A stretch of 64,000 bases of DNA, taken from Morinoia aosen (lineage: Eukaryota > Arthropoda > Malacostraca > Amphipoda > Talitridae). Below the pieces are notes generated by a model. It was not told the origin of the DNA. It did not search any database and worked only from the letters and a program-made list of their open reading frames with translations. Location: contig CM059568.1 in the NCBI GenBank assembly GCA_030386875.1, forward strand, positions 28,080,120 to 28,144,119, in the 5' to 3' direction. Positions within the stretch are counted from its first letter, which is position 1. Each line of letters starts with the position of its first letter. A program made the translations under genes and the position numbers. Positions 4,176-45,560 of this stretch are shown here, piece after piece.

Positions 4176-7100
4176 GAAAGCGTCCTAAACTCGCATCATC
4201 TGAACATAAGTCATCAGAACTCGAGAACATTTTCTCAACGAGGCTAAACTACATTTCCTCCTAGAAAAAAGTCAGTGACTTTATTCCTTTTTGCTATAAG
4301 AGAAGCGCAAATTACCAACAAGGAATTTTGAGGAATGCCCTAATTCTTCAGTTTGTGCAGGCCACTTGTTGAGTTTCCTTCACGAAATTAAAAGTTTAAA
4401 AGTTCCAAAATGTTACATTCGTCTTCTGGGTGTTACGACCTCCGCGATCGTAAACGATTCATGTACCAAACTCAACAACATAACGAGACGAAACAAACCA
4501 TAAGGGTGTGTAGCCATGAATTTTAAAAGAAGAGCATAAGAGTAAGGAACGAATTTTCAGTGCACAAAAAGTTAGAGCAGCAGCGTAGGACGGTCGCCAA
4601 GGTGAACGCATATATGCGCCGTTGCTGTGCCTGCGCGCAGTCCCTGCAAGTGCAGGCCGTCCTTTGGCATTTGAGGAGGTGGCTGCTTGCACATCACGCA
4701 TCCTCTCGGGCACCCCCTTCGGATTTGCGTGTAAAAAAAATCACGTCGAACAGGATCAACATCTTCAAACATTCTAGCAATGAATGGTAGATTTAGTTCT
4801 TTCGTTTAGTCTATCTGATGTTTTTCATTCACACAATAATTGATTGTCGGTTGCCTATATCAACGAGACTAGGAAATTTCAATCTATTTTCGTAAGAAAT
4901 TGGCAAATTATCTACCCGTTAGAAATACTTTATATCTTAAAATTTTAGATATGAAAATACTTATAACTTGAGTTTTTGAATTTTAAGTTTCAAAAATAAA
5001 GACATAAATTTCACATCTTAACCTAATTGTTGAGCGAAGGCAGCGCTAGCGCAAACAACCGTCAGTTTCCTCCCAATCAAAAGATTATCCCACCCAAATA
5101 TCTTCTATGAGCGGCTAATAAATTTCTTCTATGAAATACTTGATAACTAGAAAAACGAGCACCGCTCAGTAGGACAGGAAATCAGAAACACGTCGACCTC
5201 CTTGACTAGACAAGATCCATATCGGAATTTTTCAATTATTATCTCTAAATTTATTCACGAATACATTTCAGGTTTAAAATGGGCAAATTCCATTTCAGCT
5301 TTTGATTACCAGATTGCGCAGATATTTTCCTACAGGAATCAACAGCTGTACGTCCACTGACCCATTTCTTAAGTTCTCAGTACAACAAACTATGCAACGA
5401 GGGCAAGCAAAAGAGGCAACTTACACAGAGTGTTAATTAATTCTCAGCACTGGAGGAAATTGGTAAAATATCCGTAACGGTGTGTGTTCTGCCAACCTGC
5501 GCAGACAGCAGAGGTGGTCAAATTGGCGAGGGGGTGCGGCATGAAACGTTGACTTGCACGCCACATGAACGAAATTAACGGCGATCGCCTTCGATTGTAT
5601 CAAATGCTAAGCAAATTTACCAGGACATACACGAATTCACAGCTATTGTTAAAAGTATGCAGCCTTGAGTAGGGAATAACTTCCACGAGACTCGGGTTAC
5701 GTAGTGACGAATCGCCGATATTTAACAGAAATAAAATGTTGCTGAAAACCATTGAATACTTAAAACGTCCCAGCTTATGTCTTTGTAGCTTAATATCTGA
5801 ATAGCTGATACTTTCCAAAATAAATAAATGGCTAGGCAGCTAATATCTACCAAATTTCCTACCTAGGTAGCAACTGTACTCCTAATGACGGATGCAATTT
5901 TTAGTAAATCTAACCGGACACTTACATTACCCCAAACATGCTTAATTGGGTGATAGTTTTAGCAAAGACTTGTCAAAATTTACGCAATTAAAAAATGCAC
6001 ACATTGAAAATATCTACTTCAAAAAAGAGTAGAAAAGTTTTTTCAGAGCAAAACCTTGCGCGGAGAAACTTCAGTTACACCTCGAGGAACCCAAATGTTT
6101 TATCGGTGTTGCATAACGTAAAAACTCTTTAAAAACCGTTTACAACCTCATTCATATTTTTTTTAAGTATTTAAAAATATTGAACTATGATTACATAGGG
6201 TGTGGTTTGATTGCAAGATTGTTGTTACAAACTATAACTTGGCAACAATATACCTAAAGATAAAAGTTATACAAGAAATTCTTAAAATTAGAGTACAAAA
6301 GTTTGTAGGTTGAAGTCGTCGCCTTCACAGGCACACCGAAATAGCAGCCAATAAATGTAGTTACACATTCTTTGTAGTTAAGATACGCAACACCAGGCGC
6401 CTGAAGCAATTCAAAGAAAAACGTTTACTCACGCGCCGCTGCGCACGCTCCGACACCACTTTTACGCACCCAGCACTCGGCCTCACCTGGAATGTAAAGA
6501 ATAGTCACGTCATTGTAAAGTGCCTGCAACCTCAATAAAACATTCTCGTGTGGATGATTATTCGTGAGTAATGGGAGAACGATATTCTTCCAATCTTCCC
6601 CCTCTAATCATCTAGAGGCTACAATGTGCTGTTCTAGCGATGGTGCAACAAAGACACTATAAAATACAAAATAAAACAGTTTTACATAAAATTTTCTTCA
6701 GAAAAAACGAGTGGAGAAAATTTTCTATGCTAATTTTGGACAAACTGTTTTATTCAACACAATCATAGTTTTTGTTATATTATATTCAACACATTTTTGT
6801 ACCATCTAAAACACCTGCATCAAATAAATAAGCACATGATGTCAAAAGTTTGAGCGCTTCAAAAATGGTTGTAAGTTCAATGTAGAAGGTGTAAATTCTG
6901 GTGTGTTACCATTAGCATTCTATATATGGCCAATTTCATTTCACTTACCAATTCTGCTAGAACTGTCATTAAGAAAACTCCGAGCAGTTTCTTCCCGTAT
7001 CAAATGCAAGAGTCAAGGGAAGCAATTGATGAAATTAAAACCTTTTATATTTTCTGATTATTTCTTTCGATTTTTTTACGAAATTTGCACTCAATTGAAA

Positions 7101-13020: not shown

Positions 13021-13577
13021 AAACGCCTATGCCAATGTCTGCAAACAAAAGGGCGAGACAAAACGCCTATGCCAATGTCTGCAAACAAATGGGCGAGACA
13101 AAACGCCTATGCCAATGTCTGCAGACAAAAGGGCGAAACAAATCGCCTATGCCAATGTCTGCAGACAAAAGGGCGAGACAAAACGCCCATGCCAATGTCT
13201 GCAGACAAAAGGGCGAGACAAAACGCCCATGACAATGTCTGCAGACAAAAGGGCGAGACAAAACGCCCATGCCAATGTCTGCAGACAAAAGGGCGAGACA
13301 AAACGCCCATGCCAATGTCTGCAGACAAAAGGGCGAGACAAAACGCCCATGCCAATGTCTGCAGACAAAAGGGCGAAACAAATCGCCTATGCCAATGTCT
13401 GCAGACAAAAGGGCGAAACAAATCGCCTATGCCAATGTCTGCAGACAAAAGGGCGAGACAAAACGCCCATGCCAATGTCTGCAGACAAAAGGGCGAGACA
13501 AAACGCCCATGCCAATGTCTGCAGACAAAAGGGCGAGACAAAACGCCCATGCCAATGTCTGCAGACAAAAGGGCGAA
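13021..13577. repeat. 40-bp satellite, block A (about 14 units)
   Basis: Direct tandem repeats of a 40-bp unit. Each unit contains the 10-bp palindrome GTCTGCAGAC and a GGGCG/CGCCC inverted pair eight bases apart. Two main variants alternate: one with GAGACAAAACGCCC, the other with GAAACAAATCGCCT. The left edge lies at about 13019, after GTAGAAGTTGG. The unit lacks stop codons in most phases, so frames of up to 221 codons run through it. They are repeat artefacts, because 40 is not a multiple of three and the same bases are read in all phases. Confidence 0.97.
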
Positions 13578-13935
13578 GTTTATTATTAGTTTATTAGTTA
13601 GTTTAAGCCTCCCTATCCTCAACAATGAGATGTAAAGAGAGGAAGGAAGAAGGCACCATTTAGTATGGAGTTAAGGGAACGTGGAATCTATGCAGAAAGG
13701 GCACAGAAACAGAAAGCTAAGAAAGAAGTTCATGAAACAAGAAAAAGTTGAAGAAGAAAGTGGTAGGCGGTGAAAAACAGGACAGCAGTGAACCGAAAAA
13801 AAGATGGCCCGTAACACAACAAAACCTATTCTATTTTAACAAAAGAAAGCCCACCTAACCTTTAGCTCGGGCCCTCACATTGTCCCCCTGGGAGCGCTAG
13901 TTCCCATAGATACAATAATTGTATCCCCCTGAGGG
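13578..13935 (-). mobile_element. Retroposon R inserted in the 40-bp satellite (first copy)
   Basis: A nearly full-length R copy starts GTTTATTATTAG and ends CCCCCTGAGGG. It is flanked by CAAAAGGGCGAA at 13566-13577 and 13938-13949, a 12-bp duplication made of satellite sequence, so the element inserted into a pre-existing array. The same junctions recur at 14671-15040 and 16054-16411. All three therefore descend from one insertion followed by segmental amplification. Confidence 0.92.
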
Positions 13936-13937
13936 AT

Positions 13938-14670
13938 CAAAAGGGCGAAACAAATCGCCTATGCCAATGTCTGCAGACAAATGGGCGAGACAAAACGCCC
14001 ATGCCAATGTCTGCAGACAAATGGGCGAGACAAAACGCCCATGCCAATGTCTGCAGACAAAAGGGCGAGACAAAACGCCCATGCCAATGTCTGCAGACAA
14101 AAGGGCGAGACAAAACGCCTATGCCAATGTCTGCAAACAAATGGGCGAGACAAAACGCCTATGCCAATGTCTGCAGACAAAAGGGCGAAACAAATCGCCT
14201 ATGCCAATGTCTGCAGACAAAAGGGCGAGACAAAACGCCCATGCCAATGTCTGCAGACAAAAGGGCGAGACAAAACGCCCATGCCAATGTCTGCAGACAA
14301 AAGGGGCGAGACAAAACGCCCATGCCAATGTCTGCAGACAAAAGGGCGAGACAAAACGCCCATGCCAATGTCTGCAGACAAAAGGGCGAGACAAAACGCC
14401 CATGCCAATGTCTGCAGACAAAAGGGCGAGACAAAACGCCCATGCCAATGTCTGCAGACAAAAGGGCGAAACAAATCGCCTATGCCAATGTCTGCAGACA
14501 AAAGGGCGAAACAAATCGCCTATGCCAATGTCTGCAGACAAAAGGGCGAGACAAAACGCCCATGCCAATGTCTGCAGACAAAAGGGCGAGACAAAACGCC
14601 CATGCCAATGTCTGCAGACAAAAGGGCGAGACAAAACGCCCATGCCAATGTCTGCAGACAAAAGGGCGAA
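13938..14670. repeat. 40-bp satellite, block B (about 18 units)
   Basis: Same unit as block A. One unit near 14300 has an extra G (AAAAGGGGCG), which shifts the reading phase without breaking the open frames. This is further evidence against coding. The block starts with the GAAACAAATCGCCT variant, as do blocks C and D after their R copies. Confidence 0.97.
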
Positions 14671-15040
14671 GTTTATTATTAGTTTATTATTAGTTTATTA
14701 GTTAGTTTAAGCCTCCCTATCCTCAACAATGAGATGTAAAGAGAGGAAGGAAGAAGGCACCATTTAGTATGGAGTTAAGGGAACGTGGAATCTATGCAGA
14801 AAGGGCACAGAAACAGAAAGCTAAGAAAGAAGTTCATGAAACAAGAAAAAGTTGAAGAAGAAAGTGGTAGGCGGTGAAAAACAGGACAGCAGTGAACCGA
14901 AAAAAAGATGGTCCGTAACACAACAAAACCTATTCTATTTTAACAAAAGAAAGCCCACCTAACCTTTAGCTCGGGCCCTCACATTGTCCCCCTGGGAGCG
15001 CTAGTTCCCATAGATACAATAATTGTATCCCCCTGAGGGA
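14671..15040 (-). mobile_element. Retroposon R in the 40-bp satellite (second copy)
   Basis: Nearly identical to the copies at 13578 and 16054, with an extra TTATTATTAG-like duplication at the tail side and one base lost at the far junction. It shares their satellite insertion point, so it is a duplicate rather than an independent insertion. Confidence 0.92.
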
Positions 15041-16053
15041 TAAAAGGGCGAAACAAATCGCCTATGCCAATGTCTGCAGACAAATGGGCGAGACAAAACG
15101 CCCATGCCAATGTCTGCAGACAAAAGGGCGAGACAAAACGCCCATGCCAATGTCTGCAGACAAAAGGGCGAGACAAAACGCCCATGCCAATGTCTGCAGA
15201 CAAAAGGGCAAGACAAAACGCCCATGCCAATGTCTGCAGACAAAAGGGCGAAACAAATCGCCTATGCCAATGTCTGCAGACAAAAGGGCGAGACAAAACG
15301 CCCATGCCAATATCTGCAGACAAAAGGGCGAGACAAAAGGCCCATGCCAATGTCTGCAGACAAAAGGGCGAGACAAAATGCCCATGCCAATGTCTGCAGA
15401 CAAAAGGGCGAGACAAAACGCCCATGCCAATGTCTGCAGACAAAAGGGCGAGACAAAACGCCCATGCCAATGTCTGCAGACAAAAGGGCGAGAAAAAACG
15501 CCCATGCCAATGTCTGCAGACAAAAGGGCGAGACAAAACGCCCATGCCAATGTCTGCAGACAAAAGGGCGAGACAAAACGCCCATGCCAATGTCTGCAGA
15601 CAAAAGGGCGAGACAAAAACACCCATGCCAATGTCTGCAGACAAAAGGGCGAGACAAAACGCCCATGCCAATGTCTGCAGACAAAAGGGCGAGACAAAAC
15701 GCCCATGCCAATGTCTGCAAACAAAAGGGCGAGACAAAACGCCCATGCCAATGTCTGCAGACAAAAGGGCGAGACAAAACGCCTATGCCAATGTCTGCAG
15801 ACAAAAGGGCGAGACAAAACGCCCATGCCAATGTCTGCAGACAAAAGGGCGAGACAAAACGCCCATGCCAATGTCTGCAGACAAAAGGGCGAAACAAATC
15901 GCCTATGCCAATGTCTGCAGACAAAAGGGCGAGACAAAACGCCCATGCCAATGTCTGCAGACAAAAGGGCGAGACAAAACGCCCATGCCAATGTCTGCAG
16001 ACAAAAGGGCGAGACAAAACGCCCATGCCAATGTCTGCAGACAAAAGGGCGAA
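15041..16053. repeat. 40-bp satellite, block C (about 25 units)
   Basis: The longest block. Private variants include AAAAGGCCC in place of AAACGCCC (near 15337), AAAATGCCC (near 15377) and a one-base insertion AAAAACACCC (near 15615). The AAAAGGCCC and AAAATGCCC variants also occur, in the same order, in block D, so C and D share a stretch by duplication. Confidence 0.97.
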
Positions 16054-16411
16054 GTTTATTATTAGTTTATTAGTTAGTTTAAGCCTCCCTATCCTCAACA
16101 ATGAGATGTAAAGAGAGGAAGGAAGAAGGCACCATTTAGTATGGAGTTAAGGGAACGTGGAATCTATGCAGAAAGGGCACAGAAACAGAAAGCTAAGAAA
16201 GAAGTTCATGAAACAAGAAAAAGTTGAAGAAGAAAGTGGTAGGCGGTGAAAAACAGGACAGCAGTGAACCGAAAAAAAAAAGGTCCGTAACACAACAAAA
16301 CCTATTCTATTTCAACAAAAGAAAGCCCACCTAACCTTTAGCTCGGGCCCTCACATTGTCCCCCTGGGAGCGCTAGTTCCCATAGATACAATAATTGTAT
16401 CCCCCTGAGGG
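16054..16411 (-). mobile_element. Retroposon R in the 40-bp satellite (third copy)
   Basis: Nearly identical to the two preceding intra-array copies and with the same junctions. It differs from them at a few sites, including a longer A-run near 16272. Confidence 0.92.
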
Positions 16412-16412
16412 A

Positions 16413-16866
16413 TCAAAAGGGCGAAACAAATCGCCTATGCCAATGTCTGCAGACAAAAGGGCGAGACAAAACGCCCACGCCAATGTCTGCAGACAAAAGG
16501 GCGAGACAAAACGCCCATGCCAATGTCTGCAGACAAAAGGGCGAGACAAAACGCCCATGCCAATGTCTGCAGACAAAAGGGCAAGACAAAACGCCCATGC
16601 CAATGTCTGCAGACAAAAGGGCGAAACAAATCGCCTATGCCAATGTCTGCAGACAAAAGGGCGAGACAAAAGGCCCATGCCAATGTCTGCAGACAAAAGG
16701 GCGAGACAAAAGGCCCATGCCAATGTCTGCAGACAAAAGGGCGAGGCAAAATGCCCATGCCAATGTCTGCAGACAAAAGGGCGAGACAAAACGCCCATGC
16801 CAATGTCTGCAGACAAAAGGGCGAGACAAAACGCCCATGCCAATGTCTGCAGACAAAAGGGCGAGG
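16413..16866. repeat. 40-bp satellite, block D (about 11 units)
   Basis: The last block. The right edge is abrupt, after GACAAAAGGGCGAGG, and passes into non-repetitive sequence. It shares variant order with the first part of block C. Confidence 0.97.
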
Positions 16867-17458
16867 AAAACGTGAAAATGTCTTTCCACGGTCAAGCAAT
16901 TCTAATTTTCACTTTGCATATAAATACACGAAGTAATGAAAATATAAACATAGATATAAGAGCTTCTGCAGCAGCAGGGAACAATTATGGAAGTATAGTG
17001 GGTAGAATAAAACATTCTGTAATTAAGACTAAGAAGTTGGCATGGTAGCAATTCAAAGCTATCGTTTCGCACATTTCAAAATAGTACCAAGGTATTAACC
17101 TTAGGGAACATGCTTTAAAGACCGCAACAAACTTATTTTTTCTTCAGATATAATCCTGGAAAAAAGGAAAAACTGTTTCATTCGAATGAGGATGAAACAG
17201 CAAATTTGTTACAACATTGTTATTAAAAACTTTTGACAAAAATTACTTCAATTTTTACTCGAACCATTACAGTTATTATTGTAGCAATGTAAATTGTTGA
17301 ATAAAATATCGAGGTAAAACATAAAAATTATTCTTTGGGATGGTTTGCACGAAGTTAAAAAGCTTATAAATACCGCTCACCAGAGGAAAGGCGATGAAAA
17401 TTTACAGAAATGCATTGGAGAACATAATCTATGTTTATATTAGCGCATTAGTTCAGCA
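16867..17458. other. Unassigned AT-rich sequence
   Basis: Non-repetitive flank of the satellite. Nothing recognisable. It ends in the left target duplication of the next R copy (GCATTAGTTCAGCA at 17445-17458). Confidence 0.5.
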
Positions 17459-17818
17459 GATTAGATTAGATTATTAGTTAGTTTAAGCCTTCCTATCCTC
17501 AACAAATAAGATCCAAGGAGAGGAAGGAAGAAGGCACCATTTAGTATGGAGTTAAGGGAACGTGGAATCTATACAGAAAAGGCACAGAAACAGTAAGATG
17601 AGAAAGAAGTTCATGAAACAAGACCAAAGTTGAAGAAGAAAGTAGTAGGTGGTGAAAAAACAGGACAGCAGTGAACCGAAAAAGATGGTCCGTAACCAAA
17701 CAAAAACCTATTCTATTTTAACAAAAAGAAAGCCTACCTAACCATTAGCTCGGGCCCTCACTTTGTCCCCCTGGGAGCGCTAATTCCTCTACATACAATA
17801 GTTGTATCCCCCTGAGGG
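17459..17818 (-). mobile_element. Retroposon R, full length, clear target duplication
   Basis: The element lies between GCATTAGTTCAGCA (17445-17458) and GCATTAGCTCAGCA (17819-17832), a 14-bp duplication with one mismatch. On the given strand it starts with GATTAGATTAGATTATTAG, which read on the minus strand is a (TAATC)n 3' tail, and it ends with the CCCCTGAGGG hairpin that is the 5' end. This is one of the best copies for defining the family. Confidence 0.95.
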
Positions 17819-31948: not shown

Positions 31949-32167
31949 ATCATTACGAATTTCAACAAATGATTTCACGACGCCTTGTGAGCCACCGGTG
32001 GCGCACGGAGGGTGTTTTCACGATGTTGTTGAAACATCTCGATCATGCCTTCATTTAACAATTAAATATTAATGATAACTGAGTTTGTCTCTACTGGTCC
32101 GTCAGTAGTATTATGAAACTCCTCTCCGTGCCCACTGCATGGTGGTGCACGTTGTGATCAAGGTGTA

Positions 32168-32760
32168 AAAGGAACGCGGAATCTATGCACAAGGTACACG
32201 GAAACAGTAAATTGAAAAGGAAGTTTATGAAACAAAATAAAAGATTTGATTAGAATATTAGTTAGTTTAAGCCTCCCTATCCTCAACAAATGAGATCCAA
32301 AGAGAAAAAGGAAGAAGGCACCATTTAGTATGGAGTTAAGGGAACGCGGAATCTATGATTAAAGGGCATAGAAACAGTAAGATGAGAAAGACGTTCATGA
32401 AACAAGATTAAAGTTGAAGAAGGAAATAGTAGGTGCTGAAAAAACAGGACAGCAGTGAACCGAAAAAAGTTGATCCGTAACAAAACAGAAGCCTATGTTA
32501 TTTTAACAAAAAGAAGGCCTACCTAACCTTTAGCTCGGGCCCTCACATTATCCCCCTTGGGAGCGCTAATTCCCACAGATACAATAGTTGTGTCCCCGTG
32601 AGGGGAACAAGATAAAAGTTGAAAAAGAAAGTTGTAGGCGCTGAAAAACAGGACAGCAGTCCGAAAAAAATGATCTGTAACAAAATAAATATCCATTCTA
32701 CCTCAACGAAAGGAAGGCCTTCCTAACCTTTAGCTTGGGACCGTACATATTCCCCCGGAA
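32168..32760 (-). mobile_element. Retroposon R (older copy) split by a second R copy
   Basis: Fragments at 32168-32243 and 32606-32760 join into one R copy once the inner copy is removed. The target duplication AACAARATAAAAG lies inside R's own sequence. Both outer edges are truncated. Confidence 0.88.
32244..32605 (-). mobile_element. Retroposon R, full length, inserted in an older R copy
   Basis: Flanked by AACAAAATAAAAG (32231-32243) and AACAAGATAAAAG (32606-32618), a 13-bp duplication with one mismatch. It has the tail side GATTAGAATATTAG and a 5' end close to CCCCGTGAGGGG. It must be younger than the host copy. Confidence 0.93.
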
Positions 32761-42279: not shown

Positions 42280-45200
42280 AACATCTCTGTACCTCAGCAG
42301 TCCTGCCAACGATCTCTGTACCTCAGCAGTCCTGCCAACGATCTCTGTACCTCAGCAGTCCTGCCAACGATCTCTGTACCTCAGCAGTCCTGCCAACGAT
42401 CTCTGTACCTCAGCAGTCCTGCCAACGATCTCTGTACCTCAGCAGTCCTGCCAACGATCTCTGTACCTCAGCAGTCCTGCCAACGATCTCTGTACCTCAG
42501 CAGTCCTGCCAACGATCTCTGTACCTCAGCAGTCCTGCCAACGATCTCTGTACCTCAGCAGTCCTGCCAACGATCTCTGTACCTCAGCAGTCCTGCCAAC
42601 GATCTCTGTACCTCAGCAGTCCTGCCAACGATCTCTGTACCTCAGCAGTTCTGCCAACGATCTCTGTACCTCAGCAGTCCTGCCAACGATCTCTGTACCT
42701 CAGCAGTCCTGCCAACGATCTCTGTACCTCAGCGGTCCTGCCAACGATCTCTGTACCTCAGCAGTCCTGCCAACGATCTCTGTACCTCAGCAGTCCTGCC
42801 AACGATCTCTGTACCTCAGCAGTCCTGCCAACGATCTCTGTACCTCAGCAGTTCTGCCAACGATCTCTGTACCTCAGCAGTCCTGCCAACGGTCTCTGTA
42901 CCTCAGCAGTTCTGCCAACGATCTCTGTACCTCAGCAGTTCTGCCAACGATCTCTGTACCTCAGCAGTTCTGCCAACGGTCTCTGTACCTCAGCAGTTCT
43001 GCCAACGATCTCTGTACCTCAGCAGTTCTGCCAACGGTCTCTGTACCTCAGCAGTTCTGCCAACGGTCTCTGTACCTCAGCAGTTCTGCCAACGGTCTCT
43101 GTACCTCAGCAGTTCTGCCAACGGTCTCTGTACCTCAGCAGTTCTGCCAACGATCTCTGTACCTCAGCAGTCCTGCCAACGATCTCTGTACCTCAGCAGT
43201 CCTGCCAACGATCTCTGTACCTCAGCAGTCCTGCCAACGATCTCTGTACCTCAGCAGTCCTGCCAACGATCTCTGTACCTCAGCAGTCCTGCCAACGATC
43301 TCTGTACCTCAGCAGTCCTGCCAACGATCTCTGTACCTCAGCAGTCCTGCCAACGATCTCTGTACCTCAGCAGTCCTGCCAACGATCTCTGTACCTCAGC
43401 AGTCCTGCCAACGATCTCTGTACCTCAGCAGTCCTGCCAACGATCTCTGTACCTCAGCAGTCCTGCCATCGATCTCTGTACCTCAGCAGTCCTGCCAACG
43501 ATCTCTGTACCTCAGCAGTCCTGCCAACGATCTGTGTACCTCAGCAGTCCTGCCAACGATCTGTGTACCTCAGCAGTCCTGCCAACGATCTCAGTACCTC
43601 AGCAGTCCTGCCAACGATCTCAGTACCTCAGCAGTCCTGCCAACGATCTCTGTACCTCAGCAGTCCTGCCAACGATCTCTGTACCTCAGCAGTCCTGCCA
43701 ACGATCTCTGTACCTCAGCAGTCCTGCCAACGATCTCTGTACCTCAGCAGTTCTGCCAACGATCTCTGTACCTCAACAGTCCTGCCAACGATCTCTGTAC
43801 CTCAACAGTCCTGCCAACGATCTCTGTACCTCAGCAGTCCTGCCAACGATCTCTGTACCTCAGCAGTTCTGCCAACGATCTCTGTACCTCAGCAGTTCTG
43901 CCAACGATCTCTGTACCTCAGCAGTCCTGCCAACGATCTCTGTACCTCAAAAGTCCTGCCAACGATCTCTGTACCTCAGCAGTCCTGCCAACGATCTCTG
44001 TACCTCAAAAGTCCTGCCAACGATCTCTGTACCTCAGCAGTCCTGCCAACGATCTCTGTACCTCAGCAGTCCTGCCAACGATCTCTGTACCTCAAAAGTC
44101 CTGCCAACGATCTCTGTACCTCAGCAGTCCTGCCAACGATCTCTGTACCTCAGCAGTCCTGCCAACGATCTCTGTACCTCAGCAGTTCTGCCAACGATCT
44201 CTGTACCTTAGCAGTCCTGCCAACGATCTCTGTACCTCAGCAGTCCTGCCAACGATCTCTGTACCTCAGCAGTCCTGCCAACGATCTCTGTACCTCAGCA
44301 GTCCTGCCAACGATCTCTGTACCTCAGCAGTCCTGCCAACGATCTCTGTACCTTAGCAGTCCTGCCAACGATCTCTGTACCTCAGCAGTCCTGCCAACGA
44401 TCTCTGTACCTCAGCAGTTCTGCCAACGATCTCTGTACCTCAGCAGTTCTGCCAACGATCTCTGTACCTCAGCAGTCCTGCCAACGATCTCTGTACCTCA
44501 GCAGTCCTGCCAACGATCTCTGTACCTCAGCAGTCCTGCCAACGATCTCTGTACCTCAGCAGTCCTGCCAACGATCTCTGTACCTCAGCAGTCCTGCCAA
44601 CGATCTCTGTACCTCAGCAGTCCTGCCAACGATCTCTGTACCTCAGCAGTCCTGCCAACGATCTCTGTACCTCAGCAGTTCTGCCAACGATCTCTGTACC
44701 TCAGCAGTCCTGCCAACGATCTCTGTACCTCAGCAGTCCTGCCAACGATCTCTGTACCTCAGCAGTCCTGCCAACGATCTCTGTACCTCAGCAGTTCTGC
44801 CAACGATCTCTGTACCTCAGCAGTTCTGCCAACGATCTCTGTACCTCAGCAGTCCTGCCAACGATCTCTGTACCTCAGCAGTCCTGCCAACGATCTCTGT
44901 ACCTCAGCAGTCCTGCCAACGATCTCTGTACCTCAGCAGTCCTGCCAACGATCTCTGTACCTCAGCAGTCCTGCCAACGATCTCTGTACCTCAGCAGTCC
45001 TGCCAACGATCTCTGTACCTCAGCAGTCCTGCCAACGATCTCTGTACCTCAGCAGTCCTGCCAACGATCTCTGTACCTCAGCAGTCCTGCCAACGATCTC
45101 TGTACCTCAGCAGTCCTGCCAACGATCTCTGTACCTCAACAGTCCTGCCAACGATCTCTGTACCTCAACAGTCCTGCCAACGATCTCTGTACCTCAACAG

Positions 45201-45560
45201 TCCTGCTAATGATCTCTGTACCTCAACAGTCCTGCCAACGATCTCTGTACCTCAGCAGTTCTGCCAACGATCTCTGTACCTCAGCAGTCCTGCCAACGAT
45301 CTCTGTACCTCAGCAGTCCTGCCAACGATCTCTGTACCTCAGCAGTCCTGCCAACGATCTCTGTACCTCAGCAGTCCTGCCAACGATCTCTGTACCTCAA
45401 CAGTCCTGCCAACGATCTCTGTACCTCGACAGTCCTGCCAACGATCTCTGTACCCCAGCAGTCCTGCCAACGATCTCTGTACCTCAACAGTCCTGCCCAC
45501 AATCTCCATCAGTTTAGCCAATAGTCTTCTGCTTTCAGTCCTACCAACAATCTGCATCAC
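42280..45560. repeat. 29-bp satellite, about 111 units
   Basis: Direct tandem repeats of a 29-bp unit built from CTGTACCTCAGCAG and TCCTGCCAACGATCT. The core runs to about 45500; 45500-45560 are decayed edge units. Variants cluster: units with GGTCT and TTCTG dominate 42880-43150, units with CTCAAAAG recur 2 and 3 units apart at 43940-44100, and CTCAACAG units cluster near 43780-43815 and 45130-45490. Such clustering is expected from local unequal exchange. The plus-strand frames (up to 548 codons) are artefacts of a stop-free 29-bp unit cycling through all three phases. Confidence 0.97.

Follow-up and report, generated by a model that had tools for sequence, protein, structure and literature searches.

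An array of 40-bp tandem units that is interrupted three times by nearly the same element raises the question of whether this element, here called R, entered the array once and was then copied together with its surroundings, or entered it three times. The array lies within the window, i.e. the whole 64 000-base stretch of DNA analysed here (C13:28080120-28144119), and the assembly searched comprises 1.99 Gb. TRF delimits the array, giving a period of 120 as well as 40 bp, and three near-identical R elements of ~360 bp cut it into four blocks, A to D (Table 1). Splitting the array at a fixed motif gave a map of 68 unit anchors, with 13, 17, 24, and 11 units in blocks A, B, C, and D, respectively (the final unit of D being imperfect), and three further units split by R. 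The sequence-only reading of this DNA had described three near-identical R copies with the same junctions, and this is borne out: R1, R2, and R3 share one orientation and one phase, and each is bordered by CAAAAGGGCGAA to its left and by (C)AAAAGGGCGAA to its right. Their start-to-start spacings are 1104 bp (R1–R2) and 1372 bp (R2–R3).

Table 1. Positions in the window of the array, its blocks, and the R copies in and beside it
Feature	Position	Strand	Evidence or remark
40-bp minisatellite array with three R copies	13021..16872	+	TRF, unit map, genome search
Block A: 13 whole units and left part of R-split unit	13021..13577	+	Unit map
Right end of block A, left flanking duplication	13566-13577		
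R1, ~360-bp retroposon	13578..13937	- (sense)	Flanking duplication 13566-13577 / 13938-13949, 12 bp
Block B: 17 whole units between the right part of one R-split unit and the left part of another	13938..14670	+	
R2, tail ~10 bp longer, 11-bp flanking duplication	14671..15041	-	
Block C: 24 whole units between the right part of one R-split unit and the left part of another	15042..16053	+	
R3, retroposon copy; substitutions: 3 versus R2, 4 versus R1	16054..16413	-	
R3 flanking duplication, 12 bp	16042-16053 / 16414-16425		
Block D: split-unit remainder, 10 whole units and imperfect final unit	16414..16872	+	TRF, unit map
Older R copy with flanks of its own, 91% identical to R1	17465..17818	-	Just outside the array

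The genome search with the 40-bp unit found no second array of that unit in the 1.99-Gb assembly; as the search omits very common words, the result is strong rather than absolute, and its repeat counts are lower bounds. One other match, at 62% on C2, was rejected as a second locus, as it proved to be an array of a 16-bp unit with only a 17-bp motif in common. This C2 array (L058, ~855-1660) contains GCAGACAAAAGGGCGAG, the 17-bp motif that is present in the 40-bp unit too, and we take the resemblance to be fortuitous or, at the very most, a sign of remote kinship. Single-locus arrays with units of ~10–100 bp are classed as minisatellites, which agrees with a 40-bp unit in 3.9 kb of DNA including R, while satellite families form large arrays or occupy many loci. 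As far as the search shows, the array is a single-locus minisatellite and not a satellite family, and the earlier term 'satellite' is too strong because the unit was found at this locus alone. The window holds a second large minisatellite at 42283-45506, with a 29-bp unit in 111 copies at 97% matches (TRF), a strong C-over-G skew, and no R match inside.

The R family accounts for 24 alignments in the window, totalling 6404 bases (~10%), and some copies are nested in or abut other R copies, e.g. at 32162-32756. A genome search with the array as query counted 3515 candidate places, of which 40 were scored; 39 of these lie outside the window and 38 were usable. Flanking duplications were present in 42 of 43 near-full R copies (>90% identical; taken from the window and from the fetched loci), the sole exception being L044, and were 11–16 bp long in 37 of the 42, with the others at 7 bp (two), 9 bp (two), and 25 bp (one). 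The 42 include the three array copies and count one duplicated locus twice (L049/L050), and the 9-bp duplication of L055 is the start of the 14-bp duplication of L037. The target-site duplications differ between copies, as expected of a retroposon, and so does the length of the TAATAAAC-type 3′ tail, while the 5′ start CCCTCAGG is common to these copies, which were selected as near-full. Taken together, the sequence features indicate that R is an abundant short non-autonomous retroposon. R3 had no match in Rfam at E ≤ 5, the tRNA search of the window found none, and R showed neither a pol III B box at up to two mismatches nor a sense A box at up to one mismatch to the consensus. Since the head of a classical SINE, i.e. 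a relation to tRNA, 5S, or 7SL together with clear pol III boxes, was not detected, R is here called SINE-like and not a classical SINE. The first 56 bases of the R 5′ end (e.g. 16358-16413, minus strand) fold as a closed three-way structure in two of the five copies tried, of which one is young and the other diverged. The fold of the whole element is unremarkable (z = -1.06), and we therefore make no structural claim for R. Three ORFs of the window had no Pfam match at E ≤ 0.01. In addition, L049 and L050 (C15, 26.34 and 26.61 Mb) lie in opposite orientation ~0.27 Mb apart with R copies, flanks, and duplications common to both, and appear to be an inverted segmental duplication. The older R copy beside the array, at which a script found an exact flanking repeat of just 7 bp, is a natural control.

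It had been proposed that a common origin would be refuted if R copies elsewhere were as close to the array copies as these are to each other. On its face this is what we found: the array copies differ from each other by 2, 4, and 4 bases, and the nearest outside copies from them by 2–4. Raw identity was thus rejected as a test of common origin, as it does not discriminate. Among the 38 young outside copies, themselves chosen for similarity to the array copies, pairwise differences have a median of 8 and a minimum of 0; because the R family is young and nearly uniform, the outcome does not refute a common origin. When the array copies were aligned in separate pairs, the differences were 1 (R1/R2), 3 (R2/R3), and 4 (R1/R3).

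More telling evidence comes from the junctions and from individual bases. The 26-mer across the left junction occurs exactly three times in the 1.99-Gb assembly with no mismatches allowed, all in this array, and its reversed-pattern control does not occur at all. The 12-bp duplication previously noted around the first R is present at all three copies as TTCGCCCTTTTG (R sense; 12, 11, and 12 bp); since an identical phase in a 40-bp repeating target gives an identical duplication, this is not separate proof of one insertion. The unit split by R is of the B type on its right side in all three cases, compared with 9 of the 65 unsplit units. The 5′ base of R is T in 3/3 array copies versus 1/38 young outside copies, and column 88 is G in 3/3 versus 6/38. 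The bases that distinguish R3, at columns 106, 140, and 142, are also found in 6, 3, and 3 of the 38 outside copies, and the column 136 base of R1 in 3 of them. In a tree of 51 R copies, R1, R2, and R3 form one group with a support of 81/77, recovered in 80% of 200 bootstrap trees, and only 1 of 500 label shuffles scored as low as the observed grouping; R1 and R2 are nested inside it (96/78). Neither branch reaches the strong-support mark of the program (95 and 80), and the tree groups the three array copies with moderate support.

The order of variant units beside R was compared between blocks for six flank pairs, and is significantly common in two of them. In the left flanks A/B, and likewise in the right flanks C/D, which adjoin R2 and R3, the common order was matched by none of 2000 shuffles. 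The likeness of C and D had been seen from the sequence before and is confirmed; that of A and B, which is even closer, had not been reported. No significant common order was found for the left flanks A/C and B/C (203 and 157 of 2000 shuffles were as good) or the right flanks B/C and B/D (672 and 1148 of 2000). As these four pairs lack a significant order, the data do not establish one composite unit that all three R copies share. The shared flanks span 13 units in A/B and 10 units in C/D, reaching the outer ends of the array. The blocks differ by 0.18% (left, A/B) and 1.18% (right, C/D), compared with 3.78% of sites between random unit pairs (62 units). Within each pair, the divergence of R agrees with that of the flank: R1/R2 differ by 1/361 substitutions in the body and 1/545 in the flank (plus gaps of 38, 3, and 1), and R2/R3 by 3/361 and 5/425. 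The combined changes, 8/786 for the split of R3 versus 2/906 for R1/R2 (Fisher p = 0.052, one-sided binomial p = 0.034), are suggestive of an R3 split (~1.0%) older than the R1/R2 split (~0.2%). At 3e-9 per site per year, an insect-like value that is assumed and not measured, the two splits would be ~1.7 and ~0.4 million years old.

Because of the phase, the shared 5′ base, the tree grouping, and the common unit order, we consider it very probable that R was inserted once and then copied locally with its flanking units, by whatever route. The sequence-only reading had proposed one insertion followed by amplification of the composite, and the unique junction, tree, unit order, duplications, and preference model (see below) support it well. 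For the route itself, we think two steps of tandem duplication probable. R (minus strand) would have been inserted into one variant 'B'-type unit of the 40-bp minisatellite, making a 12-bp target-site duplication, and two local tandem duplications, each spanning R and many units, would have followed. R3 would have parted from the ancestor of R1 and R2 in the earlier of them, and R1 from R2 in the later one. Ordinary minisatellite instability would be enough, misaligned units having undergone either unequal exchange or replication-based duplication, and no function would be needed. We infer both the order of these events and the mechanism of recombination; a single haplotype is compatible with unequal crossing over, with replication-based duplication, and with long-tract conversion. 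Within the local-copying scenario, gene conversion or template switching could have copied R and its flanks inside the array without duplicating whole blocks. Each adjacent pair of flanks is significantly alike on one side of R only, and tracts with one long arm could give the same pattern; against this, the shared flanks are long and extend to both array ends, as tandem duplication predicts, and we hold this sub-route to be unlikely.

Three independent insertions at one preferred site would have to be considered in a target that recurs every 40 bp, as a real preference would be hit repeatedly, identical phase in a tandem target would yield identical duplications, and each array copy resembles outside R copies about as closely as it resembles the other two. 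A target-preference model built from 35 independent insertions rejects this account: the observed site ranks only 15th of 80, with p = 0.014, and three insertions at any single site have p = 0.007–0.009. Independent insertions would also leave unexplained the shared 5′ T and the B-type unit at all three copies, and above all the common unit order beside R, which speaks strongly against them; we consider them highly improbable. An assembly duplication, with fewer real R copies on the chromosome, is as improbable. Tandem arrays are indeed where assemblies fail, but the copies differ, R1 by one base, R3 by three, and R2 by a tail extended by ~10 bp and one base missing from its junction, and many units are block-specific; from these differences an artefact appears unlikely. 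Moreover, at 3.9 kb the array would fit within an ordinary long read. For a composite that arose elsewhere and then moved here we found no supporting point, and the search, with its repeat counts as lower bounds, found arrays of the 40-bp unit and the exact junction nowhere else in the assembly; this origin is hardly credible.

With one insertion and local copying as the preferred history, the locus can be compared with higher-order repeats. The earlier likening to an incipient higher-order repeat is a fair metaphor; in the strict sense the term does not hold because there are three copies, they are unequally spaced, and only two of six flank pairs share a significant order, in place of a regular period in many copies. 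The locus is an irregular three-copy composite. Nor is co-duplication automatic, since at least three of the 38 outside loci have R inside another minisatellite, or at its edge, without co-amplification. Their units are 34 bp (L026), 17 bp (L044), and a different 40 bp (L020), and the 9.9-kb stretches around them hold one young R each (97.8–99.4% to R1). The remaining R matches in the 9.9-kb stretches are 64–84% identical; one, in L064, directly adjoins the young copy within its array. L063 has two arrays built of a similar 34-bp unit, ~3.3 kb apart (1718-1892 and 5153-5525), with R inserted at the edge of the second.

In minisatellites with internal higher-order structure, blocks of variant units are duplicated together, and the difference here is that R provides an additional tag by which such blocks can be followed. 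The bovine satellite 1.711b carries an inserted retroelement-like segment, and its unit has been amplified whole. It resembles the array here in that a repeat unit was enlarged by an inserted element, and differs in being a large satellite family of Bovidae in place of a single-locus minisatellite. Its monomer is ~2.6 kb long (PMC7644632). At the sheep Y centromere, a 2.5-kb unit with BOV-A2 (a SINE) and BovB (a LINE) forms an array of ~120.7 kb, and the authors hypothesise an insertion followed by replication and homogenisation, stating that the origin could not be ascertained (PMC11436988). There, as here, a mobile element is embedded in the repeat unit; the present locus differs in having three irregular copies in 3.9 kb, with the flanking duplication and R-less units still visible. 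In squamate reptiles, SINE sequence has become tandemly repeated via local duplication, so that part of the SINE is itself the unit of the satellite, whereas here a pre-existing array carries the whole of R (PMC10702118). Tandem repeats derived from transposable elements have been reviewed (PMC9659126).

Element-bearing composite repeats are therefore already known, and this locus is a small, early-stage member of that class; no case at an equally early stage was found in the excerpts of the literature searched. Most studies of element-containing satellites concern arrays that have already grown long and uniform, a stage at which it is difficult to establish how they arose. Here the target-site duplication, R-less units, and traces of two duplications remain readable, which makes the locus a small but useful illustration of the way in which mobile DNA enters repeat units, not a new principle. 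The finding is real and well explained, and modest in scope. It would gain weight if the composite proved to be polymorphic in copy number. We think it rather doubtful that the locus is a live early intermediate of a retroposon-bearing satellite, with a composite of R and about 17–24 units still expanding and varying in copy number between individuals; were it one, a single locus would allow the initial incorporation of elements into satellites to be followed as it happens.

Among the other tandem repeats of this assembly, (TTAGG)n is abundant, with 15 492 exact overlapping 30-mer matches, which points to an arthropod genome. The coagulin family, sought as a sign of a horseshoe crab, gave no match, but the 14 control genomes of that search were equally silent, so that its absence is not established. 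Arrays of (TTAGG)n occur far from contig ends, e.g. at C1:29645251-29645520 and C2:18036-18290, and we take these to be internal telomere-type arrays.
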